Shown: positions 10,293-25,467 of the stretch, piece after piece | How positions within the stretch are numbered: position 1 is the stretch's first letter | Layout: every line of letters begins with the position of its first letter | NCBI GenBank assembly: GCA_946407725.1 | Contig: CAMJPM010000020.1 | Coordinates: 1-40,998, forward strand | Direction: 5' to 3' | DNA from: an uncultured Lachnospiraceae bacterium | GTDB lineage: Bacteria > Bacillota > Clostridia > Lachnospirales > Lachnospiraceae | DNA length: 40,998 bases | Position numbers and translations under genes: made by a program | Notes under the pieces: model-generated | What the model saw: only the letters and a program-made list of their open reading frames with translations | The model's database searches: none | What the model was told of the DNA's origin: nothing

Positions 10293-13200
10293 TCATTTCT
10301 TATAATAAACAGTCCCGTAGTAGTCATTTTTCCCCGTAATGGAGATGCTTCCGCTATCCGGACTCTGGTCGATAACGTAATCTGTCTTGTTTCTGTCGCT
10401 GTTATACTTTAATTTAACGATCTTTCCGATCTCATTTGAATTAAAGGTTATCTTCTTAAACCTCACTTCACCGTTGTCGTCCTGTTTTATTTCCCCAAAG
10501 GTCACATTCTCCGGGGTAAGAAGCATGGGGGTTATGCCAAACTCAAACTTCTTATCCTTGAAACTCTTTTTTGCGTTCTTATGCCTCTTTCCCTTGAATT
10601 TCACCTTGAAATAAGGGAGATTGTCCTCTTTTATGGCATTTATGCCGTCAATGGACACGGAGGCCTTCTTGTTGTTCTTTGTTGTCAGCTTATATTCGGA
10701 GGGATCCACGAACTCACCGTTAAGATATATCTTTACACCGATATCACACTGCTTTGAGCTGGTGTTTTTCGCTTTGTAAAGAGTTCCGTTTTCCTTCATT
10801 CCCACGGCCACATGCCGTCTGCCGTTTCCGGAAACCGTCTTATCCCAGCGCACAGTATACAGGTTTCCCATGACATTGACGGATACCGATGTCTTGTTGT
10901 CGCTTACGGTATTACCGGAAACCTGGGTAATGTCTCCGCTGTCTCCGCTGTCTTCGCTGTCTTCGCCTTTACCGCTGCCTTTGTTAAGTATCTGAACATA
11001 GCCGTCAGTGTATATATCATCCGTGTCATAATCAGGAAGATCCTCATCATCTATCTTCCAGTAGAAGCTGTTATTCGCTCCGCTTTTCGCATCATAGGTG
11101 CCCTCCAGGCTCCAGATCACATCCGCACTGACTGAAAGGGGCTCTTTATTCCCTTCGAAGTGCAATACTGCCTTTCTTCCCAGCTCATTTGACGAAAGAA
11201 CACTATCCGCCGTATATTCCTTTTCAAAGGTATCCGGATAGTAAGGCTCCGTGATACGCTTTATCCGCCTCTTTACGGTGCTGTAAGAGCCCAGGTCAAG
11301 AAGGAGTCCGGAATCAAAATCCCCGTTTTTCACAAGGCCTGTCGAGGAAGGAGAAAGTGTTTCACCATCCAGGCTTACGATAGTGTCTTTAGTAAATTCG
11401 TAGCCTGTATTCACCGAAACCGTTGCCCTTGCCCTGTAGCTCCGTTCCCACTTTGCATCAAGTACAGTGCTTCCGTCGGATTCATCTGTCCAGTTAAGGA
11501 ATGCGGTAACGCGGGCTGTTCTGTAGTTATCTGAAACAGAAACCTTTAGGCTTTTCTGCAGGGCTTCTCCGGCCACAGGCTTCTTTAATCCGTTCAGACT
11601 TACTTCCGCGATCTTTTCCGTATCCACCCCGAAGGTTCCGAGATCCAGCCTCATATCTGTATTATATCCGCCTGCCCTGTTAATGGTAACAGCCTCAGGC
11701 GACAGCTTCTCTCCGTCAAGCCATACAACCGTGTCCTCTGCAAATTCAAAGCCGTGATTCACGGAAACAGATGTGGAAGCCTTATAGATCTTATTCCACT
11801 CAGGCTCTATAGCTCCTGTGCCATCCTCTTTAGTCCATTTGAGTTCCCGGTAATAATCATCTGCAATACAGTTTTCGGATACCTCCGCTAAAATGAGCTT
11901 CTGGAATTTTTTGCCTATTACGGGCTTTTCAAAACCATTCAGGCTTACTTCCGTGATCTTTTTCGTATCCACCCGGAAGGTTCCGAGATCCACCCTCATA
12001 TCTGTATTATATCCGCCTGCCTTGTTAATGGTGACAGCCTCAGGCGGCAGCTCCTCTCCGTCAAGCCATACAACCGTGTCCTTTGCAAATTCAAAGCCGT
12101 AGTTCACGGAAACAGATGTGGAAGCCTTATAGATCTTATTCCACTCAGGCTCTTCAGCCCCTGTTCCATCCTCATTAGTCCATTTAAGTTCCCGGTAATC
12201 ATCATCGACAATACAGTTTTCGGACACCTCCGCTAAAATGAGCTCCTGGAATTTTTTGCCGATTACGGGTTTTTCAAAACCATTCAGGCTTACAGCATTT
12301 ATCTTTGTAGTGTCCAGATAATACTCCCCGGGAGTAATATATATTTCATCCTCAAATACATATCTCCTGTCAGAGGATAAACCCTTTTCGTTAATGTCCA
12401 CTGCGCAGTTTTCGTCAAACACATACCCGTCAGCGGCTTTAAGCATCATAAACGGGTAGTAACTGTATCCATACTCCGCTCTGTCAAACTCACCTGCTTC
12501 TTCATACGTATCATCATTCCACCGGTACCATTTTATTTCCATAATGGGATCATCCAGGATGGAAAGATCACTATTATCCGGGTTATTACTGGAATAGGCG
12601 TTGAAAACAAGTGCATAGCTTGCCAGAGCGTTTCCGGCTTTTGGCTCTTCAAAATCCGAGATCCCGATCCTTTTGATCTTGCTTCCGGCGTTTTGTATAT
12701 TGTACATTCCTGACAGCTCCACCGCCGATGTATCATATTCCCCGGACTCGGTTTCATCAACGGTCCACCTGAAGAGATTCCAGGCATGAGATTTTTCGTT
12801 ATACCCGTCATGACTTACTCCGTTTACATCATTATACGAAACCGTCCAGTTTACACGAAACTCTTGTTTTTCATCAGGCTGTCCCGGCGCTCCCTCCAGC
12901 ACAGCCATTGCTTTCAGATCCTTTAAGGGATCCAGTACAGCATCTTTATCCGCAAATTCCTTCTTAAACTCGTCTCCGGCTACTCCCATCGTCCATAATC
13001 CGGGTCCTGAAACCGAATACATTCTCCTTTTACGGGCAGAAATATTTTCCATCGAAATGGAAAAGTATGTTTTATCCAGAGACATATCAAAATTGCCTTT
13101 AATATCCCCTACTCCGTCCTTATTGCTGATGATGCGTCCATCGCAGTCCGTAAACAGTATTACCACATCTTCCGCGAATACGCCTCCGCCGTTGGCGGAA

Positions 13201-14705
13201 ACAGAAACGGTCATCTTGTACTTCTCATTAATACTGGCACATGTGGTTTCATCAACCGGGGTTGTGTCCTCTTTCTCCCAGGACACAGCAGGCTTGGAAA
13301 TAATAATATTTTCGGAATTTAAAATGTCCACATCCGCATCAAAATCAAAGGGCAGTCCCGCCACCGGCTTATCAATACCATATAACGTTACAAAGGGTAC
13401 GCTCAGCTTTTCATCGATCCTTACCGGAACCGGTTCGCTGGCAAAATCCGTATCCTTTCCGCCATTGATATCTTCGGCAATGATGTAGGAATAATAGTCA
13501 ACGCCCCATTTCTTATCTTCAAGCTCCTTTCCGGTAAAATCATAGGTAGCATATCCGGCTTTGTCCCGGGGCAGATCCATAAGCTTTTCATAGCCCAGGA
13601 TATTGATGTCATCCGTGTCCGCCGCATTATATTCCTTATCCAGGAAAAGGATGGAGAGCTGTGTGGCGTTGGCGCTTAAGCTCCCTCCCACCTTATAGGG
13701 GATCAAAACCTCATTGTCCAGTCTGTAGGTACTGTCCGGGCTCTCCAGTGTCAGCCTGTCATCTATTATGGTGAGCTTATACTCAGCCCCTGTCTCTCCC
13801 TTTGTTCCGTTAACCAGGGAAGAGAACAGCACCTTGCTGAGATCCACGTTAAACGCCGGGCTCACACCTCCTGTTCTGGTAGTAACCGCATAGCCGGAAA
13901 TCGGGCCTCCCCTGTTATAATCCGTCACCGTTGCTACATACATACTTTTTTCATTTCTGGGATTAAGTAGCCACCAGAACGTCCTTTGCTGTCCGTGATA
14001 AAGCTTTTCCCTGCAGATGGCACTCTCATTATCCGACTTCTTCTGGCATTTTATGTACCCGTATGCTTCATTAAACACATCCGCAATGTCCAGCATAAAG
14101 ACCTTTTCATTTTTGAGAGGGACTGTATAGATAGCGTTTTCATTTATATCACCATAGTCCTCGACCAACGGTTCGGGGATCGGTCCTCCGCTTCCCGCTC
14201 CCATTACCTTCTGGGATTCCCTGTTGCTGTCTGCGATGGCACGGAACTCGGAATCAGAAATATTGCTCATCCTGAACGTACGGGATTCATTATTCAGCTG
14301 ATACTGGGCGTAGCTCCCCTCCCATTTATTGCAGGTATAATCGTTGGAATTCCAGAATGTACTGTAAAACTGTAAAACATCACTGTCCAGAAACAGAGTC
14401 TTTATCCCCTTTCCCTTGGTGTACTCGTCCGTGGAGGGAGCCAGTACCCTGTATCTGAAATAACCATAAGACGATGTGTTATAATCATAGTGTTTGCCAT
14501 AGTATACGTAGCTTCCCTCCCAGGGTGCATCAAGGCCTGACGGAACCTTTGGTGTGGCCATTCCGCTGCTGCCAAGTAACAGTGTATCCTTCGATTTCTC
14601 AGGGATGCCTTCTTCAGCAAAGGCTGCGCTGCCTATGGAAAAAACGGCGGCTGCCACGGTAAGAATTCCGGCGATCATATACTTCTTTACTATCTTTTTA
14701 TCCAT
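10293..14705 (-). CDS. Giant secreted DUF6273-like repeat protein (paralogue B)
   Basis: This 1470-residue protein has a signal peptide (residues about 1-30, ending SAAFAEE). An N-terminal DUF6273-like domain follows at about 50-310, with YVYYGKHYDYNTSSYGYFRY, NKWEGSYAQYQLN, FWWLLNPRN and GGVSPAFNVDLSKVLFSS. Residues about 320-800 are beta-rich. Three tandem repeats of about 115 residues span about 798-1138; each starts near LNGFEKPVIGKKFQ and includes WNKIYKASTSVSVN and FEFAEDTVVWLDGE. The C-terminal 185 residues (VSGNGRRHVAVGM to DYYGTVYYKK) are shared with the next gene upstream. No cell-wall or membrane anchor is visible, so it is predicted to be released or held noncovalently. It lies 81 bases after its paralogue and about 64 bases before the stalk protein gene, consistent with one transcript. 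Confidence 0.85.
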   Translation of the reverse strand: MDKKIVKKYMIAGILTVAAAVFSIGSAAFAEEGIPEKSKDTLLLGSSGMATPKVPSGLDAPWEGSYVYYGKHYDYNTSSYGYFRYRVLAPSTDEYTKGKGIKTLFLDSDVLQFYSTFWNSNDYTCNKWEGSYAQYQLNNESRTFRMSNISDSEFRAIADSNRESQKVMGAGSGGPIPEPLVEDYGDINENAIYTVPLKNEKVFMLDIADVFNEAYGYIKCQKKSDNESAICREKLYHGQQRTFWWLLNPRNEKSMYVATVTDYNRGGPISGYAVTTRTGGVSPAFNVDLSKVLFSSLVNGTKGETGAEYKLTIIDDRLTLESPDSTYRLDNEVLIPYKVGGSLSANATQLSILFLDKEYNAADTDDINILGYEKLMDLPRDKAGYATYDFTGKELEDKKWGVDYYSYIIAEDINGGKDTDFASEPVPVRIDEKLSVPFVTLYGIDKPVAGLPFDFDADVDILNSENIIISKPAVSWEKEDTTPVDETTCASINEKYKMTVSVSANGGGVFAEDVVILFTDCDGRIISNKDGVGDIKGNFDMSLDKTYFSISMENISARKRRMYSVSGPGLWTMGVAGDEFKKEFADKDAVLDPLKDLKAMAVLEGAPGQPDEKQEFRVNWTVSYNDVNGVSHDGYNEKSHAWNLFRWTVDETESGEYDTSAVELSGMYNIQNAGSKIKRIGISDFEEPKAGNALASYALVFNAYSSNNPDNSDLSILDDPIMEIKWYRWNDDTYEEAGEFDRAEYGYSYYPFMMLKAADGYVFDENCAVDINEKGLSSDRRYVFEDEIYITPGEYYLDTTKINAVSLNGFEKPVIGKKFQELILAEVSENCIVDDDYRELKWTNEDGTGAEEPEWNKIYKASTSVSVNYGFEFAKDTVVWLDGEELPPEAVTINKAGGYNTDMRVDLGTFRVDTKKITEVSLNGFEKPVIGKKFQKLILAEVSENCIADDYYRELKWTKEDGTGAIEPEWNKIYKASTSVSVNHGFEFAEDTVVWLDGEKLSPEAVTINRAGGYNTDMRLDLGTFGVDTEKIAEVSLNGLKKPVAGEALQKSLKVSVSDNYRTARVTAFLNWTDESDGSTVLDAKWERSYRARATVSVNTGYEFTKDTIVSLDGETLSPSSTGLVKNGDFDSGLLLDLGSYSTVKRRIKRITEPYYPDTFEKEYTADSVLSSNELGRKAVLHFEGNKEPLSVSADVIWSLEGTYDAKSGANNSFYWKIDDEDLPDYDTDDIYTDGYVQILNKGSGKGEDSEDSGDSGDITQVSGNTVSDNKTSVSVNVMGNLYTVRWDKTVSGNGRRHVAVGMKENGTLYKAKNTSSKQCDIGVKIYLNGEFVDPSEYKLTTKNNKKASVSIDGINAIKEDNLPYFKVKFKGKRHKNAKKSFKDKKFEFGITPMLLTPENVTFGEIKQDDNGEVRFKKITFNSNEIGKIVKLKYNSDRNKTDYVIDQSPDSGSISITGKNDYYGTVYYKK
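11290..12310 (-). repeat. Three tandem ~345-bp coding repeats
   Basis: Sequence at 11641 onward recurs at 11986 onward, an offset of 345 bases (115 codons). These two copies are near-identical at the DNA level over about 320 bases, with only scattered substitutions. A third copy at about 11290-11635 is more diverged. This indicates a recent in-frame duplication within the secreted protein gene. Confidence 0.9.
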
Positions 14706-14786
14706 ATTACTTTCTTCCCTCTTGAATTGCTCCCTGTCAATACTGTTTCAAATCCTTAGCGGTTTTCCGGAACTCCGGGAATTGTA

Positions 14787-17700
14787 TCAGTCACCGGCAA
14801 CTGTGCCGTAATAATCATTCATTCCAATTAACAGTATCTTTCCGGTTTCCGGATCCTGTCTTGTCACATAATCCGTCTTTTCCAAATCCTTGTTGTACTT
14901 TAGCTTAATGACTTTTCCCGAATCAGGTGATGTATAGGTAACGCGCTTAAACACCACCGAGCCGTCAGAAGCGGACTTCTTCTGCCCGAAAGCCACTGTT
15001 TCCTTTGTAAGTAGGGCAGGGGTTATGTCAAATGAATACTTCCTGTCCTTAAAGCTCTTTTTTACTTCCTTATACTCTTTGCCCTTGAATTTAATAATGA
15101 AATACGGCAGCTTGTCTCCCCTTAAATGCGTTACCCCGTCAGAGGACACTGAAGCCTTTTTGTTATTCTTTGTGACAATCTTATATTTTGAAGGTTCTAC
15201 AAATTCACCGTTCCTGTATACTTTCAAACCTATATCATACTGCTTTGATTTGCTGTTTTTGGCCTTATAGAGGGTGCCATCCGCATTCATTCCCGCAACC
15301 GCATGCTTTTTGCCGTTTCCCGATACAGTCTTTTCATAGTTTATTTCATATATATCTCCAAGGACATTCTCGGATATGCTGACCCGGTTGCTGCTTACAT
15401 CAGAGTCGGGCAGGACTGAAGGAGCAGGAGGGGTAACCGGGGACTCCTCTTCAGAGCTGCTCCTGTTAACAATACTGACATAGCCGTCGGTACTTATACT
15501 TTCCACATCATAAATATAATGCTTCAGCTGTCCCTCATCTATATGCCAGTAAAAAGAATTCGCAGCCCCATCAGAATCGTCATAGGCATTGCCTGCAAGA
15601 CTCCATATAACATTGCAGCTCATTGTCAAAGGCTCTTTATCCCCTTCAAAATTAAGCCATGCGCTTTTACCGAGCTCATCGGACAAAAGAACTGTATCTG
15701 CCGTATACGTATTTTCAAATACAGCGGGATGATCCGGTGCCGTGATCGTGCTTATTGTCCTTTTTTCACTGTTATATGTGCCAAGATCCAGCTCCAGGAG
15801 GGAAGCATACTCTCCGTCACTTATTATGTTCACTGAATCATCCGGGAGTACCTCTCCATCAAGGGTAACAGCCGTTTCTTGAGCAAACTCATACCCGGAA
15901 TTAAGCGATACCGTGGCCTCAGCCCTGTAATCCCTGTTCCATCCCGCCGTTTCCGCCGCACTTCCGTCCAAAACATCAACCCAGTTCAGACTGACAGAAG
16001 GATTAAGCATGGGATCGCCATCCGGAACGGATACCGAAAGGCTCCTTTTCAACGCTTCTCCCGCCACCGGTTTTTCAAGGCCGCTAAGCCTGATCTCACT
16101 TATCTTTCCTGTTTCTGTCCCGAATGAACCAAGCTCCACCTTAAGGAGTGAATCATACATTCCAACCTTTTCTATGCTTACCGATTTTTTGGGAAGCCTC
16201 TTCCCGTCAACCTCTACAACTGTATCCTCTGTAAACTCATACCCGGAGTTAATTGATACCGTCGCCTCAGCCCTGTAATCCCTGTTCCAGCCCGCCGTTT
16301 CCGCTGAACTTCCGTCCAGAGCATCAAACCAGTCCAGACTGACAGAAGGCCCGATCCCGGGATCGCCATTCGGAACGGATACCGAAAGGCTCCTTTTCAA
16401 TTCTTCTCCCGCCACCGGTTTTTCAAAACCGCTAAACCTGATCTCCCTTATCTTTTCTGTTTCTGTCCTGAATGAACCAAGCTCCACCTTAAGGATTGAA
16501 TCATACATTCCGGCCCTGTTTAAGCTTACCGATTTTTTTGGAAGCTTCTTTCCGTCAACCTTTACAACAGTATCCTCCGTAAACTCATATCCCCTGTTAA
16601 GGGAAACCGAAGCGGAAACCGTATAATCCCTGTTCCAGCCGGCTTCATAAGCCTCATTTCCATCCGGGTCTGTCCAGCTTAAATCCACCCTGTCTCCCGT
16701 AGACAGACAGCCGTCATAGGGCGTGGCTGCCGGCAGTCCGGCGGGAAGCGCTGTTCCTCCCACAGGTTCTTCTACTGCACCAAGCTCCACCTCCAGAACC
16801 TTTTCTGTCGGAAAAGAATGGTAATCAGGGAAGATCCACAGCTGGTCTTCATAAGCCAGAGAAGACCTCTCATCAAGAAAGTATCCGTTAACGTATACCT
16901 GACACTCTTCGTCAAAAAGATACTTTTTTTCACTGTTTGCTTTCAGGAGAATAGTCGGATAATACTCATAATTATACTCTGCAACAGTACCCGCTTCCAG
17001 CTCCCTGCTTCCATAACCTTCATCCGAGGCATACCATTCGATCCCCACTTCCTGATCATCCGGATTTTCAAACGAGATAAGCGTAGGCGGATAATCCACA
17101 TCGTCATCGGCCTCCACCCCGTCTACCCTGACTTTGGTATCGAGTTCTTCGTCGATTATGGGTTCCGTATAATCTGTTATTTTTACTGTTTTGATCTTTG
17201 CCCCGTGATTCCTTATGCTGACTACGCCCGTCATGCTGATGTCGGTTTCATAATGAGAATAATCATCGCTGTGCAATGTCCAGCGGAAATAATTCAGCCC
17301 GTTTGACTCGGGATTGTATCCTTCTTTAGGCTCTCCATCTTCATAGTGAAATACCTCCCAATGATCCAGTCCGATGGGAATCTCCACCGGATTGTTATTG
17401 CTCTGGATCGGACTTACTCCCTCCTTCACCGCTGTCGCCTTAAGATTCGCGTTTTTAAGTGCCTCCTTAACCTTGTCCGCATCTGTCAGATTGAGGTTTT
17501 CAATAAACATCCCATCCTCGGTCAGACCCGGAATATTATCCACATTCGGACCGGAAACGGATACTATCCTTCTCTTTATGGGTGTAACGGCATCACAGGA
17601 TATGGTTATCCATCCCTGTGAAACCCGGCTGATATCTATATGGGTAACATCTTCTCCTTCGGGACCCCTGATATAGCTTTGACCATCACAGTTCTGAAAA

Positions 17701-19271
17701 TAAACTGCCGTATCATTCTGGAAATTTCCGTTTAAGTTTACCGTAAGATAATAGGATTTATTCAGCTCTGCAACCGCATTCTCAGAGACAATATTCCCGT
17801 CTCCATCCTTCCATTCCACCGTTGCTGTGGGATCCTCCGAACTATCACCCCCTATGGAATAGACTGCAGCCTCGCGATCAAAGGGAAATTCAGCCACCGG
17901 TCTCGCTATGTCCCCTGCCAGAACTGCGGCCGTTGTATCAGGCTCAGGAATTTCTATCTTCACCGGTGGACTGGCATAATCAGTAAGATTCCCTTCATTG
18001 ATGTCCTCCGCGATAATGTAGACACCATCATTCTTTGAAGCCTTGGACGGAATATCAAAGGTGACTATACCGTTTTGCAGCGTTCCCTCTTCCTGGCTGA
18101 TATGCTGATATTCTTTTATACGTAACTCATCCTTTTTTTCAGGCTTATACTCACCGTCAAGCACCAGCAGGGAAAGATTGGTTGCGTTGGCACTTAAGGA
18201 GCCTCTCACGCTGTACGGGACATACATCGTATTATCTATCCTGTACATGTGAAGCGGAACAAATTCTATGTTGTCATCCACCATGGTAAATTTATACTCG
18301 GCATCAGCCTTTCCCTTTTCACCCTTAACAACCGAGGAAAAGAGCACTTTATCCAGATCGATATTACAGGCGGGAGAAACATAATACTGATTCGAAACCT
18401 CACGACCCAGGGTAGTGCTTTTGCCGTAGCTGTTGGTGAGGCCTATTATACCTGCTTTTGTATGATCATTGGCGTTATTATCGTTAAAGAAAGGATTTCT
18501 CAGCCACCAATCCCCGTAACGTCTGCCATCAAATGTGGATTTTCCCCTTGAATATGCAGAACCGGAGTTTCCGTATCCCGAATGCCTCAGGTATCCGTAA
18601 TTTTCATCATAAGTATCCGCTGCATCAAGGCAGAAGAACCAGTTGAAATCCACAGGAACCGTAAAGTAATCTCCGGTATAATAATCCTCGATTGTTCTTT
18701 TGTTGCTTAATCTTCTCCGCTCATAATCAGAGATATAGCCGCCATTCGTGGCTATTTTCACCATCGTAGAAGCAATCTGGGTTTTCACAACGGCAAGTTC
18801 TTCAGCTTCGGTAAAATATTCCCTGTTTCCGTAAAAATGATTATCCTTGTTAAGCAGCTTCTGCAGAAGGCTTCCCTCCCATTTGTTGCCCGTTTCTTTC
18901 GATCTTGCCTCGCTCGAATTGAATGAACCCGGAAAAAGACATGAGTCACAATCCAGAAATGCAGCGTTCACTACACCATTGATTCCGGCAACTCTTTTTT
19001 TTCTATTGAGAACCCTGTATTTTACACTCTTAAAGCCGCTGCTTGCGTCACCGTACTTCCCGAAGTAAACGAAACTGCCATGCCATTTGTCTTCCAAAGA
19101 GTCCGGAGGTGTGGGATTTGCCATCTCGTTTGTGCCAAGCATTATGGTATCCATGTTTTTAGCATTGGCGCCATCGGCTGCAGCCACAGCAGCGGCATTC
19201 AGGAAAAGTGATGCCGTCATAACGGTAAATCCGGCAGATATCAGCTTTTTTAAGGTATTCTTTATCTTCAT
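14787..19271 (-). CDS. Giant secreted DUF6273-like repeat protein (paralogue A)
   Basis: This 1494-residue protein begins with a signal peptide of about 32 residues (LFLNAAAVAAADG). The N-terminal DUF6273-like domain spans about 60-340, shown by FVYFGKYGDA, NKWEGSLLQKLLN, YFTEAEELAVV, DWWLRNPF and VSPACNIDLDKVLFSS. A linker motif GSLSANATNLSLLVLDGEY is shared with its paralogue. Three tandem repeats lie at about 840-935, 935-1050 and 1050-1163, with FSGFEKPVAGEELKRSLSVS, AGWNRDYRAEATVS and YEFTEDTVV. The conserved C-terminal domain runs from VSGNGKKHAVAGMNADG to GMNDYYGTVAGD. No anchor is visible. Gene, domain order and repeat type match the gene at 10293, so the two arose by tandem duplication. 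An AT-rich upstream gap with a TATAAT suggests it starts a transcript. Confidence 0.87.
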   Translation of the reverse strand: MKIKNTLKKLISAGFTVMTASLFLNAAAVAAADGANAKNMDTIMLGTNEMANPTPPDSLEDKWHGSFVYFGKYGDASSGFKSVKYRVLNRKKRVAGINGVVNAAFLDCDSCLFPGSFNSSEARSKETGNKWEGSLLQKLLNKDNHFYGNREYFTEAEELAVVKTQIASTMVKIATNGGYISDYERRRLSNKRTIEDYYTGDYFTVPVDFNWFFCLDAADTYDENYGYLRHSGYGNSGSAYSRGKSTFDGRRYGDWWLRNPFFNDNNANDHTKAGIIGLTNSYGKSTTLGREVSNQYYVSPACNIDLDKVLFSSVVKGEKGKADAEYKFTMVDDNIEFVPLHMYRIDNTMYVPYSVRGSLSANATNLSLLVLDGEYKPEKKDELRIKEYQHISQEEGTLQNGIVTFDIPSKASKNDGVYIIAEDINEGNLTDYASPPVKIEIPEPDTTAAVLAGDIARPVAEFPFDREAAVYSIGGDSSEDPTATVEWKDGDGNIVSENAVAELNKSYYLTVNLNGNFQNDTAVYFQNCDGQSYIRGPEGEDVTHIDISRVSQGWITISCDAVTPIKRRIVSVSGPNVDNIPGLTEDGMFIENLNLTDADKVKEALKNANLKATAVKEGVSPIQSNNNPVEIPIGLDHWEVFHYEDGEPKEGYNPESNGLNYFRWTLHSDDYSHYETDISMTGVVSIRNHGAKIKTVKITDYTEPIIDEELDTKVRVDGVEADDDVDYPPTLISFENPDDQEVGIEWYASDEGYGSRELEAGTVAEYNYEYYPTILLKANSEKKYLFDEECQVYVNGYFLDERSSLAYEDQLWIFPDYHSFPTEKVLEVELGAVEEPVGGTALPAGLPAATPYDGCLSTGDRVDLSWTDPDGNEAYEAGWNRDYTVSASVSLNRGYEFTEDTVVKVDGKKLPKKSVSLNRAGMYDSILKVELGSFRTETEKIREIRFSGFEKPVAGEELKRSLSVSVPNGDPGIGPSVSLDWFDALDGSSAETAGWNRDYRAEATVSINSGYEFTEDTVVEVDGKRLPKKSVSIEKVGMYDSLLKVELGSFGTETGKISEIRLSGLEKPVAGEALKRSLSVSVPDGDPMLNPSVSLNWVDVLDGSAAETAGWNRDYRAEATVSLNSGYEFAQETAVTLDGEVLPDDSVNIISDGEYASLLELDLGTYNSEKRTISTITAPDHPAVFENTYTADTVLLSDELGKSAWLNFEGDKEPLTMSCNVIWSLAGNAYDDSDGAANSFYWHIDEGQLKHYIYDVESISTDGYVSIVNRSSSEEESPVTPPAPSVLPDSDVSSNRVSISENVLGDIYEINYEKTVSGNGKKHAVAGMNADGTLYKAKNSKSKQYDIGLKVYRNGEFVEPSKYKIVTKNNKKASVSSDGVTHLRGDKLPYFIIKFKGKEYKEVKKSFKDRKYSFDITPALLTKETVAFGQKKSASDGSVVFKRVTYTSPDSGKVIKLKYNKDLEKTDYVTRQDPETGKILLIGMNDYYGTVAGD
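15780..16740 (-). repeat. Three tandem ~348-bp coding repeats
   Basis: GGGATCGCCAT followed by CGGAACGGATACCGAAAGG occurs at about 16011 and again at about 16359, an offset of 348 bases (116 codons). These two copies are very similar over most of the unit. A third, more diverged copy extends to about 16740. They encode the ..KPVAGE..KRSLSVSV.. repeat modules of the secreted protein. Confidence 0.88.
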
Positions 19272-19388: not shown

Positions 19389-20300
19389 TTATTCCTGGCT
19401 CAGTATCTCTATCATCTCCCGGACCATCTCCTCATCCTTCAGCTGGAATAGGAAGTCAACCCTTCTGGAGGCCTCCATATCCACCTCCCCGTCCTCGTCA
19501 TATACCGGGTTCATATAGGATCTTCCAGTGGCCGACACCAGCTCCTTTAAGGCTTCAAGCTGGCCCTCCGGCAGTATTTCGCTCTTTTCGTTCAGGCAGT
19601 ATTCCGCCACCGCAAGGGCACGTTTCTGGGAGAGCTCCAGGTTGAAGAGGTAATTTCCGTCGGTATCCGTATGTCCTTCGATAAGTATCCCGGAGATATT
19701 GTCCTTATACTTGGGGCTTAAGAGCACATCCGCGTACCTTGGCAGGAATTCCGCAAGAAACTCCTTGCCCTTATCGGTAAGGGTTGATTTGTTGTATTCA
19801 AATAATACGCTGGAATCAAAGGTAATGCCTCCGGTCTTCTCGTCCACCTTGACCTTCAGCTCGGAATCCTGGAATTCATTTTTTAAGTCCTCCACCAGCT
19901 CCGCCCTGACACCGATGATGTCGTCAAGCTTCTGCTGCTGCTCGCTCATCAGGGCTTCCAGCTTGTTTAAGAGCTCATGCTGCTCCTTTAAGGTCTTTTC
20001 CTGAATCGCTATCTTTTCTCCCTGCTCCGCTAAGGCTTCCTCCTGGGCGTTCAGCATCTTTGCCTGCTCGTCAAGCTTCGACTTCTGATCCGTTACTATG
20101 GTGCGCTCCTTATCCAGCTCATCCGCCTTCACAAGCAGCTCCTCCTCCTTCCCCAGGAGCTCGTTCTGTTTCTCATCATACTGTATCTTGGCATGGAGCA
20201 TGGACACCGCTATGATGATCACGAAAACCAGAAGAAGACCTGCCATCATGTCGGAATAGGAGAGCCAGTATGTAGTTTCCTCACTTCCCCTTCTTCTCAT
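19389..20300 (-). CDS. ZorB/MotB-like protein with OmpA peptidoglycan-binding domain
   Basis: This 303-residue protein has one N-terminal membrane helix (YWLSYSDMMAGLLLVFVIII) whose Asp17 sits where MotB and ZorB carry the ion-conducting Asp. A coiled coil of about 100 residues follows (40-140, Glu/Lys/Gln heptads). Residues about 150-295 are an OmpA-family peptidoglycan-binding domain with SSVLFEYNKSTLTDKGKEF, the signature ILIEGHTDTDG, N.ELSQKRALAVAEYCL and RRVDFLF. It is predicted to anchor a rotating or force-generating motor to the cell wall. Its start lies 5 bases after the stop of the MotA/ZorA-like gene, as expected for a stator pair. No flagellar gene is in the window, and the long coiled coil argues against ordinary MotB. 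Confidence 0.88.
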   Translation of the reverse strand: MRRRGSEETTYWLSYSDMMAGLLLVFVIIIAVSMLHAKIQYDEKQNELLGKEEELLVKADELDKERTIVTDQKSKLDEQAKMLNAQEEALAEQGEKIAIQEKTLKEQHELLNKLEALMSEQQQKLDDIIGVRAELVEDLKNEFQDSELKVKVDEKTGGITFDSSVLFEYNKSTLTDKGKEFLAEFLPRYADVLLSPKYKDNISGILIEGHTDTDGNYLFNLELSQKRALAVAEYCLNEKSEILPEGQLEALKELVSATGRSYMNPVYDEDGEVDMEASRRVDFLFQLKDEEMVREMIEILSQE

Positions 20301-20305
20301 GGGCT

Positions 20306-21754
20306 TTACCTGCGCTTTCTTAACTGCGCTTCAAATTCACGCAGGGTATCGGAAAACTCATCCATTGACTTTGAAACCTCTTTCAAGGCCTTTTCCAGGC
20401 TCTTATATGAGTAATCCACGGTTCCCGGCACTCTGTCCAGAGTCTCGTTGATATCGTTTACAGTATCCCGGAAATGTATCTCCACGGCTCTTAAATTCTC
20501 ATTTATTATCTTAAAGGTCTCTTCTACTTCCCTTGGGAAAGCCTCCACCAGCTTTTCAGTCCGGTCACCCTGCTTTTTTAAGAGCTCCGTTTCCTTTGCC
20601 ACGGTGCCCTCCAGCTCCTGTACCTCATCCACATACTGCCGGAGGGAGGCCACAACAGACCTGGTCTGGGTGGAAATGGCATTCACATTCTCGGCTGTCC
20701 CCAGGTTTTTATTGTATATCTCCTTAACCTGTTTTTCGTTTTCGCTCTGGAGTATAAGGGTCCTGTTCATGGTATCCGACAGATTTGTAAAGAGCTTTCC
20801 GAGAGAGTTGTTCATCTCGGCGATAAAGACATCCACGATCCTTGACATCTGCTCCATCTGGTTTCTGGTGGCCATATTGGCAAAGCCCTCTACGGTTCTG
20901 TTCAGCCGGTCAAACTGGGGATCCAGCACCTCCTTTAAGGAATCGGCGAAACCGTATTTTACTGCGTTTGAAAGCCCTCTTATGGCATCTGTCTGCTCTT
21001 TTTCAAGCTCCATCAGGCGGTTGACACCCTCCGCAGAGGTATCGGGCATCACGTATTTCTTATATACACCTAAAAAACGGCGGACAGCGTCCTCGGCTTC
21101 TCCCATTCTCCTTCTGAATACATAATTAAATACCAGGGAGAAGACCATGCCGTAAATGGAGGTGTGGAAAGCCACCTTTATTCCCTCCATCAGGGGTTCT
21201 ATGCTGCCCGTGATCTCTGCAGTGGTGCCGGTATTAAAGTTCTGAAGCCCCAGGGTCAGTCCGATAAAGGTGCCCAGGATTCCAAGTCCCGTCATGGCTC
21301 CCGCCACCTGTGAGAGCTGCTCCCTGTGGATCACGCTGTCAATGAGATCAAACCCGATATATTCACCGATATCACTCTTATAATAGGTCTGATCCGAAAG
21401 GTCTATCCGCTCAAGCTCATATTTATAATCCCTGAATCTTTCTTTTAAGATCTTGTCCCTGAAAAGCTCTTCCTGCAGATCCTTGTATTTTTCCCACAGG
21501 AATTTATGGGTGTGCTTTGCGTCATCCTCTATTCTGTCAGAGACCCGGTTTAGGTCCCAGGTGATGTTTGCCGCAGGCCACAGGCTCCCTGTTATGCATA
21601 CCGTGAATATGACGCCGACTATTATGAACATCACAAAATTGACTATGAGATTCGACATCCCCCCTCCGCTGCCGGAGAGATTCAGGAGCACACATACCGC
21701 CGCCATGGCAAAATAGGTTAAAAATATGATCGTTTCGTATCCTTTTCGGTTCAT
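20306..21754 (-). CDS. ZorA-like MotA/TolQ/ExbB-family motor protein with long cytoplasmic coiled coil
   Basis: This 482-residue protein has membrane helices at about 8-25, 35-58, 148-172 and 192-214. The last two carry the MotA/TolQ/ExbB core: AGAMTGLGILGTFIGLTLGL and IKVAFHTSIYGMVFSLVF. The first cytoplasmic loop (60-145) is charged and helical. From about 215 to the end there is a long cytoplasmic helical tail (MELEKEQTDAIRGLSNAVK, then repeated heptads), which is typical of ZorA of Zorya anti-phage systems and unlike short MotA or ExbB proteins. A strong SD (AAGGTGG) precedes the ATG. With the downstream OmpA protein it should form a proton- or sodium-driven complex in the membrane. ZorC, ZorD and ZorE are not in the window, so a standard Zorya locus is not supported. 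Confidence 0.87.
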   Translation of the reverse strand: MNRKGYETIIFLTYFAMAAVCVLLNLSGSGGGMSNLIVNFVMFIIVGVIFTVCITGSLWPAANITWDLNRVSDRIEDDAKHTHKFLWEKYKDLQEELFRDKILKERFRDYKYELERIDLSDQTYYKSDIGEYIGFDLIDSVIHREQLSQVAGAMTGLGILGTFIGLTLGLQNFNTGTTAEITGSIEPLMEGIKVAFHTSIYGMVFSLVFNYVFRRRMGEAEDAVRRFLGVYKKYVMPDTSAEGVNRLMELEKEQTDAIRGLSNAVKYGFADSLKEVLDPQFDRLNRTVEGFANMATRNQMEQMSRIVDVFIAEMNNSLGKLFTNLSDTMNRTLILQSENEKQVKEIYNKNLGTAENVNAISTQTRSVVASLRQYVDEVQELEGTVAKETELLKKQGDRTEKLVEAFPREVEETFKIINENLRAVEIHFRDTVNDINETLDRVPGTVDYSYKSLEKALKEVSKSMDEFSDTLREFEAQLRKRR

Positions 21755-21851: not shown

Positions 21852-22382
21852 TCAGCTTCCCCACGCCGCGGTCACATCCTCCATCCCGGCTTCACCCTCT
21901 GTCATCCTAAGCAGGATATCCATATGCCGGTCCGCCACCGCCACAGCATTGCCGGAACAGATATTCATTTCCTTAAGAAGGTCATCACCTTTCAGGTCGA
22001 TTGGCAGGGGAACGGACAGCTTGAACACCAGGGAAAGGGTCTCCCTGTCAAGGGCAAAGGCCCCGCAGGGCAGACGGAAATTGATGTATGATATCGCCTC
22101 ATAGAGCAGGGGGAGCTGCTCCTCGTCAATATCCCCGGCAATAGTTATGACAGTGTTAAAATGCTGTACCGCCGCGTCTTCTGATAATACAGGGAGAAAA
22201 AAGAGCTCTCCCACCGCCCCGTCACCGTCCAGACCCAGCTCCGGAAAGATCACCGTCAGCACCTCCACTCCGCCCGCGTCACCGGCAGCATTGAGCTTTG
22301 CAGCGATCAGCTCCTCCTGCAGAAGCCCTTCAAGGGCCTCCAGAGCCGAATGCCTCTCATTCATTATTGTTTTCCTGTCCAT
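21852..22382 (-). CDS. YbjN-like small protein, possible chaperone or adaptor
   Basis: This 176-residue acidic protein has no signal peptide or membrane helix. Its pattern (hydrophobic strands VEVLTVIFPELG, VQHFNTVITIAGDI, then AISYINFRLPCGAFALDRET and LVFKLSVPLPID, ending with a helix near MDILLRMTEGE) resembles the YbjN / type III secretion chaperone-like fold. That fold often acts as a protein-binding adaptor. It lies 28 bases after the 1018-residue protein gene, with a strong SD (GGGAGG) held in the loop of a small hairpin. Inference from position: it may bind or deliver the large protein encoded just upstream, or connect it to the motor pair downstream. The fold assignment is by eye and moderate. 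Confidence 0.65.
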   Translation of the reverse strand: MDRKTIMNERHSALEALEGLLQEELIAAKLNAAGDAGGVEVLTVIFPELGLDGDGAVGELFFLPVLSEDAAVQHFNTVITIAGDIDEEQLPLLYEAISYINFRLPCGAFALDRETLSLVFKLSVPLPIDLKGDDLLKEMNICSGNAVAVADRHMDILLRMTEGEAGMEDVTAAWGS

Positions 22383-22384
22383 TT

Positions 22385-22403
22385 AAGATCCTCCCTTGAT
22401 CTT
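22385..22403 (-). promoter_or_regulatory. Ribosome binding site inside a small hairpin loop
   Basis: On the minus strand AAGATC (22398-22403) and GATCTT (22385-22390) are perfect reverse complements flanking a 7-base loop AAGGGAG that contains most of the Shine-Dalgarno sequence of the YbjN-like gene. The ATG at 22382 follows directly. Displaying the SD in a loop could tune translation or expose it to a regulator. Confidence 0.45.
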
Positions 22404-22410
22404 TTATCCT

Positions 22411-25400
22411 CTATCGTCCGCTCATCCTTCTTGCAAGAAGCTTCGCATCAGGTATCTTCTTTTCCTCATCATAGGGCAGCCCGAATGCTTTAACTAACTC
22501 AATATAGCCCTTTTTCTCATCCTCCTCCAAAACCTCTTTCCCGGAAAACAGCTTTTCACAGACCTGGTCTGCATATCTTTTTGATATCTGGTCCGCCGCT
22601 GCCGTCATATCGCCATAGCCTGCCGCAGCAGCGAGCTTCCTCCTCATCCGGTTCCTGTATTCCTTTTCATCATGTATCTTCCGGCCTTTTTCGGCCATTC
22701 TTTCCTTTACTTTTTCCATGAATTCATCAAAGTGGAAGTACCGGTCAAACATGGCCTCCTGTATATTTCCCATATCCACGGCATTTAAGATACTGACCAC
22801 GATGCCCCCAACTGCTCCCGCCGCACTTAAGACAACACCTATGCCGGGTACCGTGACTCCCAGCATGCTTGAAATGTTCGTTATGGCCTGAAGTCCTGAA
22901 TATTTGACTTTGTGTCCGGACATAAGGTCTGCAAGCTTCAGCATGTCCCTGTCATATCTCGCTTCTTTCCGTTTTTTAAGCCTTTCCTCCTTCTGCTCCT
23001 CTGTCTCATTTTCCGGAGCATCCTTAAGGCTCTTTGCTTTTTCCAGCTTTTTATCCAGATAGTACGCTGCGTTATTTGCGTTATTGCAATCCAGAACCCC
23101 GGCTGTCAGGTTATAGGTATCTATCATAAGCCCGACCCCTGAGGTGACAAAGCTTGCGGTTTTTAAGGAGCCGGACACCTCCACTGCCCTGCTTTTTTTC
23201 ACTTCTCCGGCACTGCGTGCATATTTTCCGACCAGCTCCACACCGGTTCTGTAGGATATATAGGAATCCGCGCCGGAACTAAGCATTTCCGCCACTTCCC
23301 TGGCTTTATCCCCGGCGTGCATCTTAGCGCCGTTCTCGTAGAGATTGTATATCCCGTACATCACCGCCATGGCGTGTCCCAGGCCGGAGATCGCCGATGC
23401 TGTATATCCGTGGGAATATTTACTCACCTTTGCAATACTGCTGTCGGAGAGATGCCAGCTGTTACTTCCCCGGCGGCCGCTTAAAAGGCCTGCCGTACCC
23501 ACTACCGCATTTATTCCGGCAGCCGTAAATTCACCGCCCTTTTCCCCCGCCACAGCGTATGTATCCAGATTACTCTTAAATTCTCCTTTGTTATCATCCT
23601 CGCGGTTTAATAATCTGTCGCCGCTCTTTTCACCCTTTTCCCCGCTCTGTCCGTACTTTGACTCTGCCTCTCCCACGGCATCATCGGCAGCCAGGAGAGC
23701 CTCAAAGTCCTTTTTATACTGTTTCTCAGCTTCCGCCACCTGTTTTTCAAGCCCGGCCCTCTCCTTTTCCTTTGCCCTGCTGCACTCCTCCGCCTTTTCC
23801 TTATAGTTTTTGCAGCTAATGTAAGCCTTTTTTAACATGAGGCTTCTTATTTCCAGAGGGTCCTTAAGCTCACTGCCATCCGTCCCCTCTTTTTCCATCC
23901 TTGTGATCCTTGCGCTGTCCTTTATCAGCTCCTTATAATCCCTGTTTATCTGCAGTGCCTCGGAGAGCTTATGCATATACACATATCCCCCCACCAGGCG
24001 TGACATCAGCTTTATCTTTGATGCCACCATCTGCCTTTTAAGCTTATCGATATCCGGCTTATATTCCGTCTGTGAAGCGTAGGCGTCAAAGACCTTGGGA
24101 TCCTTCCTTGCCCCCGTCTCTATAAGGTAATAGATAAAGAGCCTCTCCCTCTTAGTCCTGCTCATAAGAGCCAAGACTATCTCGCCGTGATGGTTTTTGA
24201 TATTTAAGGGTCTTCCCACTATGCCGCCGTTATTGTAATTCCTGATAAACCAGCGGTCTATCCTTTCAATGGCCATAAGCTGCTCTTTGGAGAGATCCCG
24301 GTCTGTCTCTTCGGGGCTTAATTCCTCCTCAGGCTTTTTGTAGTCCATCCTGTCCACATGCTTTGTTGCGAGGTCATATACGGGATCCCGCTCTACGATC
24401 CCGCTCTTCTCAAAGCTTTTAAGCACCCGGTTCTGTACCTTGTAATACCTCGCCTCCTTTATGATATAGGCGATGTCCGGAACCATTTTTTCAGGGTTCT
24501 TCCGGTACAGGGATCTGTAAATATCCATATCCCTTTCATAGACTGCAAAAAGATCTGCCTTTGCCTTGACATTTGCCCTCTCATCCGCCTCGTTATATGC
24601 AAAATGCTTTTTCCATTTACCGTATTGCTTTACGAGCTCCGAAAGCCTGCTCCTGGCCTGTTTCCCTTCCTTTTCCGTATATCCTTCCCTTTTCACGGCA
24701 GGTATAAGCCCCTCATTATTGAGCTTTATATCCATATCGTCAAAGAAATGATCGGTCAGGTTACGTATAAGGGTGCTTGCCTCTTTACGGTTCTTTCCCT
24801 TTTGGGTATTACGCATTCCCCTGTGGGTATCATAGTAAATATGGGCAGTCTCGGAGAGACGGGTCATGGCTTCCACAAGGTCGTTTTCCGAAACCTCCTC
24901 CGTACCCTTTTCCCTGTCAATTATCAGCTTTTCGGTAAGGGTCATGACATGCTTTACCGCATCACGCATTTCCGTATAGTATACGGACCCCTTTTCAGGT
25001 TCTTCATCCTCTTTATTTAAGAGCTCCCATATATGGCCGGCGGCGATCATCTCCACGTATTTCCTGAAAGCCTCCCGGACCGCCTCCTTCTTTTCTTTCT
25101 GCGTATCCCCTTCAATGCTCTCACCCGGATGCTTTATTATCACACCCTCATCGGGGACGAAACGCTGACTGTCCAGGGACTCTTTTATTATCATCCTTGC
25201 ACTTTCAGCCTTGCTTTCCTCTAAAACGCCGCCGTAAGAGGGATTTATCACCGTCCCCTCCTTAAGGGAAAGTTCGGGACTGTCCAGCCTTGCTGCAATA
25301 ATTTCCTTTACTTCGCTTAAGTGACTTAAACCGGAGCCGGCTCCCGAATTCAAAATATTCGTTTCCTTTAGCCCCGGCAGAAGAGTTTCCCGCTCCTTAA

Positions 25401-25467
25401 GCGTCTCCTGCTCCTTCAGGTCATTCTGCTTTTCTTCTTTTTTTAATGTTTCCCTGAAGCCTTCCAT
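22411..25467 (-). CDS. 1018-residue protein of unknown function, candidate effector or system core
   Basis: I do not recognise this family. Residues about 1-130 are charged and low-complexity. About 130-600 is helical and rich in Lys, Glu, Arg and Tyr, with a folded-looking stretch (IERIDRWFIRNYNNGGIVG, then RTKRERLFIYYLIETGA). A coiled coil lies near 570-610. From about 640 to 900 there are four Gly/Ala-rich hydrophobic segments (about 642-665, 681-707, 771-790 and 859-897, the last being GVTVPGIGVVLSAAGAVGGI), spaced like membrane-inserting or pore-forming regions. The C-terminal 120 residues are charged helices. There is no signal peptide, so export, if any, would need a dedicated apparatus. 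GGGAGAT precedes the ATG. It opens the run leading to the YbjN-like and motor genes. Effector, structural component and scaffold all remain possible. Confidence 0.75.
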   Translation of the reverse strand: MEGFRETLKKEEKQNDLKEQETLKERETLLPGLKETNILNSGAGSGLSHLSEVKEIIAARLDSPELSLKEGTVINPSYGGVLEESKAESARMIIKESLDSQRFVPDEGVIIKHPGESIEGDTQKEKKEAVREAFRKYVEMIAAGHIWELLNKEDEEPEKGSVYYTEMRDAVKHVMTLTEKLIIDREKGTEEVSENDLVEAMTRLSETAHIYYDTHRGMRNTQKGKNRKEASTLIRNLTDHFFDDMDIKLNNEGLIPAVKREGYTEKEGKQARSRLSELVKQYGKWKKHFAYNEADERANVKAKADLFAVYERDMDIYRSLYRKNPEKMVPDIAYIIKEARYYKVQNRVLKSFEKSGIVERDPVYDLATKHVDRMDYKKPEEELSPEETDRDLSKEQLMAIERIDRWFIRNYNNGGIVGRPLNIKNHHGEIVLALMSRTKRERLFIYYLIETGARKDPKVFDAYASQTEYKPDIDKLKRQMVASKIKLMSRLVGGYVYMHKLSEALQINRDYKELIKDSARITRMEKEGTDGSELKDPLEIRSLMLKKAYISCKNYKEKAEECSRAKEKERAGLEKQVAEAEKQYKKDFEALLAADDAVGEAESKYGQSGEKGEKSGDRLLNREDDNKGEFKSNLDTYAVAGEKGGEFTAAGINAVVGTAGLLSGRRGSNSWHLSDSSIAKVSKYSHGYTASAISGLGHAMAVMYGIYNLYENGAKMHAGDKAREVAEMLSSGADSYISYRTGVELVGKYARSAGEVKKSRAVEVSGSLKTASFVTSGVGLMIDTYNLTAGVLDCNNANNAAYYLDKKLEKAKSLKDAPENETEEQKEERLKKRKEARYDRDMLKLADLMSGHKVKYSGLQAITNISSMLGVTVPGIGVVLSAAGAVGGIVVSILNAVDMGNIQEAMFDRYFHFDEFMEKVKERMAEKGRKIHDEKEYRNRMRRKLAAAAGYGDMTAAADQISKRYADQVCEKLFSGKEVLEEDEKKGYIELVKAFGLPYDEEKKIPDAKLLARRMSGR

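Follow-up and report, generated by a model that had tools for sequence, protein, structure and literature searches.

A lone ZorAB-type motor pair in Lachnospiraceae without adjacent Zorya effectors

The closest described relatives of the genes considered here are the motor genes of the Zorya anti-phage systems. According to the available part of one report, Zorya ZorAB forms a 5:2 motor, protection depends on its peptidoglycan-binding domain, on ion flow and on the ZorA tail, the loss of any Zorya component abolishes protection, and ZorAB is modelled to sense and to recruit a nuclease (PMC11890865). The accessible text of another paper states that ZorAB alone is insufficient (PMC8565338). A review of related 5:2 motors describes an 18-nm dimeric shaft made by GldM, and notes that the working of some Ton-type (ExbB-family) proteins in Gram-positive annotations, if they work at all, remains to be tested (PMC9389320). 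Here we describe a pair of zorA-like and zorB-like genes on a stretch of 40,998 nucleotides, called the window below, from an uncultured Lachnospiraceae bacterium (contig CAMJPM010000020.1 of assembly GCA_946407725.1, positions 1 to 40,998). The pair is very probably a lone ZorAB-type motor, that is, one with no relative of ZorC, ZorD or ZorE beside it, and it is as a lone pair that ZorAB occurs in Lachnospiraceae. In the literature searched, whose coverage was partial, no description of a lone ZorAB clade was found.

The ZorAB pair of the window

The two genes and the parts of their products discussed below are as follows.

20306..21754, minus strand: zorA-like gene for a motor subunit of 482 amino acids (aa) with a MotA/TolQ/ExbB core and a cytoplasmic tail
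21125..21304, minus strand: ZorA residues 151-210, the motor-core stretch of highest conservation (alignment)
20309..21046, minus strand: ZorA residues 237-482, cytoplasmic helical tail of about 246 residues (low-confidence model)
20450..20539, minus strand: ZorA residues 406-435, distal tail patch and candidate docking site (conservation)
19389..20300, minus strand: zorB-like gene for a protein of 303 aa with an N-terminal single helix carrying Asp17, a coiled-coil stalk and an OmpA-like domain
20190..20258, minus strand: ZorB residues 15-37, putative transmembrane helix, with the Asp17 codon at 20250-20252 (alignment)
19872..20189, minus strand: ZorB residues 38-143, stalk (predicted helix, hydrophobic period and length steps)
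19401..19853, minus strand: ZorB residues 150-300, OmpA-like domain, a peptidoglycan-binding fold with GHTD and SRRV motifs (Pfam, fold and alignment)

The stop codon of zorA and the start of zorB are 5 bases apart. Both open reading frames (ORFs), on the minus strand, and this gap agree with the original prediction, which had been made from the letters of the window and had called the pair a ZorAB-like motor.

ZorA matched the Pfam family MotA_ExbB (1e-07), the PADLOC model ZorA1 (8.5e-23) and, by sequence, the solved ZorA structure 8qyk (1.7e-12). When the predicted ZorA structure was compared with the PDB, the six best matches were all ZorA chains, of which five had E values of 0.001 or lower, with modest template modelling (TM) scores of 0.28-0.40 by query length; ExbB, TolQ and sodium-driven stators ranked below them. 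The protein has the MotA/ExbB core and cytoplasmic tail of a ZorA, although it lies under the NCBIfam ZorA cut-offs (ZorA_2, 73 bits against a curated cut-off of 100). In an alignment of 14 rows residues T155, T162, T198 and S199 were invariant, and by analogy with Zorya and Mot structures they may take part in the ion path. The tail, put at about 260 residues originally and at about 246 here, is helical by prediction at low confidence, and its hydrophobic period peaks at 3.55 with power extending to 3.67. Conservation was 0.55-0.58 at tail residues 406-435 versus 0.34-0.38 at residues 361-405, which makes the distal patch a candidate docking site.

Similarly, ZorB matched Pfam OmpA (1.8e-14), PADLOC ZorB1 (7.7e-73) and, by sequence, the solved ZorB chain 8qyd_F (1.2e-15). 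The five best PDB matches of its predicted structure, which had a mean predicted local distance difference test (pLDDT) of 81, were all ZorB chains, and the next fold match was the periplasmic domain of MotS. Here too the N-terminal-helix Asp and the OmpA-like domain are present, though the protein falls under the NCBIfam ZorB cut-offs (ZorB1, 88.6 bits against a curated 400). Asp17 was unchanged in 14 of 14 aligned rows. The Asp motif was present in all 33 lone ZorB of the tree set described below and in 91 of 93 ZorB altogether, a count that includes three loci twice because they came from two sources; in the other two proteins it lies beyond the 40 residues searched. Residues 15-143 were predicted as one continuous helix, and the single-helix protein with coiled coil and OmpA domain had been foreseen.

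With Zorya type I the pair shares the motor core, the Asp of the ZorB helix, the OmpA-like domain, the ZorA tail and the order A-B, and ZorA1 and ZorB1 are its best matches by sequence and fold. Zorya type II (ZorA2/ZorB2/ZorE) has the same motor pair. MotAB and MotPS belong to the same 5:2 superfamily and also have a peptidoglycan-binding end, but rank below ZorAB in the fold searches. ExbBD, TolQR and GldLM are further members of the superfamily; in contrast to ExbBD and TolQR, ZorB has an OmpA-type domain and a coiled-coil stalk.

Effectors, occurrence and neighbours of the pair

With three ZorC, three ZorD and three ZorE proteins as queries, a search at E 1e-3 gave no relative near the window's pair, as far as its neighbourhood was read, nor in the first set's 33 lone loci or among 966 proteins from 81 loci. 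The same queries recovered the canonical loci, in which effector genes accompany the motor; for ZorE these were the E. coli, Vibrio and G184 loci (G and L numbers denote genomes and loci). G341 has a ZorABCD locus and G184 a ZorABE locus, and in G112, from the same order as the window, ZorA, ZorB, ZorC and ZorD stand beside JetABC genes of the Jet/Wadjet type. ZorC together with ZorD, as in Zorya type I, was found neither at the 81 loci nor in one-model searches of 48 genomes of the genus, and ZorE beside ZorAB, as in type II, at none of the 81 loci, a search made at locus level. Across the genus the ZorC model matched in 0 of 48 genomes (positive control G112, 6.8e-11). The ZorD model gave partial, helicase-type matches in 22 of 48, of at most 264 bits versus 1168 in G112 and covering model positions 421-982 of 1171. 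The motor without adjacent Zorya effectors, proposed originally for one locus, thus extends to a clade.

A PADLOC scan at 1e-20, a limit that would miss G112's own ZorC (7.5e-17), covered 93 of 110 listed neighbour proteins from 19 lone loci, those of <90 or >1100 aa having been excluded beforehand. It matched the models mad3 (five members), C3a214 (two) and, with single members, methyltransferase, PD-T4-2_B, MkoA and MkoC models. No ZorF or ZorG model matched these 93 neighbours at 1e-20, nor the three upstream neighbours in the window at 0.1, both searches being run without a positive control.

ZorA was matched in 34 of the 48 genus genomes and ZorB in 36, among which the match in G034 (26% identity, 5e-8) was discounted; one or both were found in 37 of 48, and in 17 of the 22 genomes with a completeness of 90% or more and a contamination of 5% or less. 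In 28 of the genomes having them the two genes were read as adjacent. Samples drawn more widely gave a ZorA match in 26 of 397 genomes of the family and in 7 of 391 of the class. A scan of genome_contigs returned 366 stretches encoding relatives, of which the best 80 were retained, and 77 of these 80 are titled Lachnospiraceae, Butyrivibrio or Oribacterium. In viral contigs no relative was confirmed. The plasmid scan gave no match with ZorA and 43 records with ZorB, all at <60% identity; among those listed, four are from E. coli and carry the annotation zorB2. A partial ZorB match was seen in one phage record.

ORF picking recovered ZorA in 79 of the 81 loci (none in L135 and L147), and ZorB followed it in 72 of these 79; in the remaining seven the contig ends <700 bases from ZorA. 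Between the window and its nearest species, G015 and G007, nonsynonymous divergence (dN) was 0.02-0.16 and synonymous divergence (dS) 0.57-1.8 in five segments. zorA-zorB is a conserved pair under purifying selection.

The genes around the pair vary while ZorAB stays together, as was seen in 33 regions and then in the 81 loci; malic enzyme, FBPase, citrate synthase, thymidylate synthase, a GGDEF protein and an ABC transporter were among the neighbours. The only family recurring widely within about six genes was a cluster present at 16 of 79 loci (the next family, at 7), which was called mixed ABC-ATPase from three members read. A recurrent third gene beside ZorAB was rejected.

Two further observations concern loci of the family. 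Choline-binding-repeat proteins lie near lone ZorAB in five of them (L226, L228, L231, L232 and L233), and the three that were scanned had CAP or NlpC/P60 domains; this cluster rests on the repeats, so it was given no weight. In L236 (4229-9169), L238 (7618-11997) and L239 (4351-8886), from three genomes that have three gene clusters in common, a different ZorA-like gene is followed by one for a membrane-type protein, and in L238 this protein has SpaA folds and a ParA/MinD-like ATPase is also present.

A separate branch with long stalks

A quick, unrooted tree was built from the ZorA core and ZorB of 45 loci, with support from the Shimodaira-Hasegawa-like approximate likelihood ratio test (SH-aLRT) and no bootstrap. 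The 33 lone pairs fell on one branch (SH-aLRT 96) together with G478, which has no recognised effector. This clade of lone pairs belongs to gut and rumen bacteria and is spread through Lachnospiraceae. The five ZorABCD and three ZorABE loci lay outside this branch, where several rows had long branches. The tree left out L219 (no ZorB on its contig), L234 (ZorA not recovered by the ORF picker) and L236, L238 and L239 (another operon type).

The lone pairs also differ in proportions. The stalk from Asp17 to the OmpA domain measured 129-205 residues in 32 of 33 lone ZorB, whereas it was 61-89 in all eight canonical loci, the span that also separates the lone pairs from Zorya type I, and 75-82 in the three ZorABE loci compared. 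ZorA tails were 141-379 residues long (median 252) in lone pairs as against 378-509 in canonical loci (440-509 in the five ZorABCD and 378-416 in the three ZorABE). With a stalk of 149 and a tail of 247 residues in this comparison, the pair of the window falls outside the combination of a tail of at least 378 and a stalk of at most 89, which is the pattern of the eight loci compared and not a published criterion. Four further loci belong to neither group in these counts (stalks 170, 120, 75 and 70; tails 305, 305, 414 and 481). G042 carries a second ZorAB copy, at L060 9186-11550, with a short ZorB stalk.

The spacing from the Asp to the GHTD motif in 91 lone ZorB fell into three classes modulo 7, with 81 proteins in one class. 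On a tree of 80, from which double loci were dropped, 15-16 of 17 changes in stalk length were multiples of 7 (for 16 of 17, p ~4e-13 under equally likely classes). As a control, the internal spacing of the OmpA domain took the values 69, 70, 73 and 74; it was kept off the tree because one of the 80 proteins was without the motif. Nine ZorA of a third family group had no motif match and are absent from the stalk-change tree and the period analysis, but were kept in the ZorAB tree, the length comparison and the spacing classes. The hydrophobic period of the stalk was 3.45-3.5. A rigid coiled coil of two strands would be expected to show these features, a single-helix stalk with this period and with length steps of 7; the number of strands is taken by analogy with the 5:2 family. 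In ZorA tails, 28 gaps were found in 39 pairs, 11 of them multiples of 7 and nine of class 3 or 4 modulo 7, a pattern of steps of 7 that is suggestive only.

Possible function of the lone motor

We put the probability at about 0.55 that the pair is a stand-alone, wall-anchored 5:2 motor with a partner encoded elsewhere and a likely role in the envelope. In such a motor five ZorA would surround two ZorB, and ions would flow past Asp17 and a ring of Thr and Ser residues. Through its OmpA domains ZorB would grip peptidoglycan at the far end of a rigid stalk, about 16 nm long if its 106 helical residues each add 0.15 nm. ZorA would turn against the wall, and its cytoplasmic rod would move or lay open a site for binding; the gene of the output protein would be located elsewhere in the chromosome. 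A resident envelope device of this kind may sense or act on how far the membrane lies from the wall, or on damage to the wall, and a stalk that is long, rigid and tipped with a wall-binding domain fits the sensing of either. By analogy with Zorya, the lone pair would be the same motor with a different output, and an envelope sensor or actuator seems likelier than phage defence.

Several results weigh against this. We found no output partner gene for lone ZorAB. A 195-aa frame in L218 scored 28.7 bits to a ZorD, a weak match and the sole effector match in the 20 loci of the family where the two genes could both be read (three more family genomes match ZorA but fall outside these 20: the incomplete G819 and G706, and G613, with another operon type). 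The genus-wide searches used one model each for ZorC and ZorD, which a divergent relative could escape, and the ZorC models are weak, as the value for G112 itself shows; ZorE, ZorF and ZorG were searched for near ZorAB only. The predicted ZorA model is poor (mean pLDDT 64), its tail included, and the second ZorB of G042 has a stalk of 86 residues, a canonical length. Presence of the pair is patchy, with six changes on an rpoB tree of 40 genomes, a number not clearly below chance (44 of 500 shuffles were as low). The ZorAB and rpoB trees agree in their shallow clades and conflict at one deep placement (approximately unbiased test, p-AU 0.034 and 0.0074, 26 genomes, the groups having been picked after the trees were seen). 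From these sequence comparisons a transfer of ZorAB within the genus is likely, and because of the patchiness and the conflict it may be that the pair, like defence genes, has passed from clade to clade. A Mantel comparison of the rpoB and ZorB trees shows little (r 0.19, permutation maximum 0.19).

Such mobility bears on the best of the other explanations, phage defence in trans, in which a Zorya-type sensor would act with a nuclease or another effector elsewhere in the genome. We regard this as unlikely, though well worth keeping in view. Its homology to Zorya motors in sequence and fold, its patchy presence with one likely transfer between clades, and the model, in the accessible part of the report, in which Zorya ZorAB senses and recruits a nuclease (PMC11890865) are all in its favour. 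However, the genus gave no match to the ZorC model and, to the ZorD model, partial matches of helicase type only. The neighbours scanned gave few and partly generic defence-model matches, whereas the canonical locus of G112 sits beside Jet/Wadjet-type genes. No relative was confirmed on viral contigs, and the pair is found in most species of the genus.

The original prediction held that the motor had been coupled to its neighbours as a new output. Two of these lie upstream of zorA:

21852..22382, minus strand: 176-aa protein, companion of the 1018-aa gene and not part of the motor module (adjacency in relatives)
22411..25467, minus strand: 1018-aa protein, outside the motor module (distribution in the genus)

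Neither protein has a family match at useful scores in Pfam, PADLOC or NCBIfam, and the description of the 176-aa protein as YbjN-like found no match even at 0.1. Downstream of ZorB, at 10293-19271, the window encodes two giant proteins with DUF6273 matches below cut-off. That the motor drives the 1018-aa, 176-aa or giant secreted proteins is suggested by their common strand and short spacing in the window, and by a giant-gene relative that also follows ZorB in the two nearest species, G015 and G007. We nevertheless consider it very improbable. The 1018-aa protein has matches in 23 of the 48 genus genomes, the window's own included, and none of the other 22 has a match that shares a contig with ZorAB at less than 50 kb (G019 carries both on one contig, about 50 kb apart). 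Instead, 1018-aa relatives adjoin a 176-aa relative in nine of the nine best relatives, and G033 (89% complete) has a 60% relative of the 1018-aa protein with neither ZorA nor ZorB found. In G015 and G007 a malic enzyme stands where the cassette sits, the flanking two-component and giant genes being in common, and giant-gene relatives cluster in only three loci. The two genes at 21852-25467 were not seen beside another ZorAB, and the neighbourhood differs by species; by the test set in the original prediction, absence of neighbourhood conservation, the claim of coupling fails. The stronger relatives of this two-gene cassette (L197-L205) include open frames for large proteins of up to 2107 aa.

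An accessory flagellar stator is no less improbable. In its favour, ZorAB has the build of MotAB and the genus has flagella, with FliG found in 44 of 48 genomes. Against it, relatives such as G042, G032 and G030 have MotA-like genes some 9 kb away from fliG, and fold matches place ZorA above stators. (The MotA_N model matched in 21 of 48 genus genomes, once above its cut-off, and the window's own genome was not among the 21.) In genomes from beyond the genus, with G613 left out and some genomes incomplete, FliG was found in 7 of 22 lone-ZorAB genomes versus 31 of 57 controls; the pair does not go with flagella as MotAB would, and since lone ZorAB also occurs where no FliG was found, a stator role is unlikely, as originally predicted. 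Further FliG-like matches, separate from the main fliG match and in open frames of about 290-400 aa, were seen in G014, G019, G020, G021, G023, G024, G029 and G041.

A decaying Zorya remnant, left after the loss of ZorC and ZorD, would explain why no effector genes stand beside the pair, but is hardly credible given that the listed ZorA matches have no internal stop, that dN is far below dS in all five segments and two species, and that the motor and stalk features are kept over many genera. Of the original interpretation, the non-flagellar motor without Zorya effectors stands, and the neighbouring genes as its output do not.

Tentatively, the lone pairs could represent another class within the 5:2 motors: a rotor that is resident and anchored in the wall, serves envelope housekeeping in gut bacteria of Gram-positive type, and shares an ancestor with Zorya. 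Zorya may have taken over a motor of this kind and joined nucleases to it, although the tree, being unrooted, gives no direction. Databases that label every relative of ZorA or ZorB as anti-phage would mislabel these pairs. The seven-residue steps make the idea of a rigid, torque-bearing stalk testable by mutation, and the clade offers a natural experiment on the purpose of tail and stalk. A motor kept under selection without adjacent ZorC, ZorD or ZorE suggests that there are other outputs for ZorAB.

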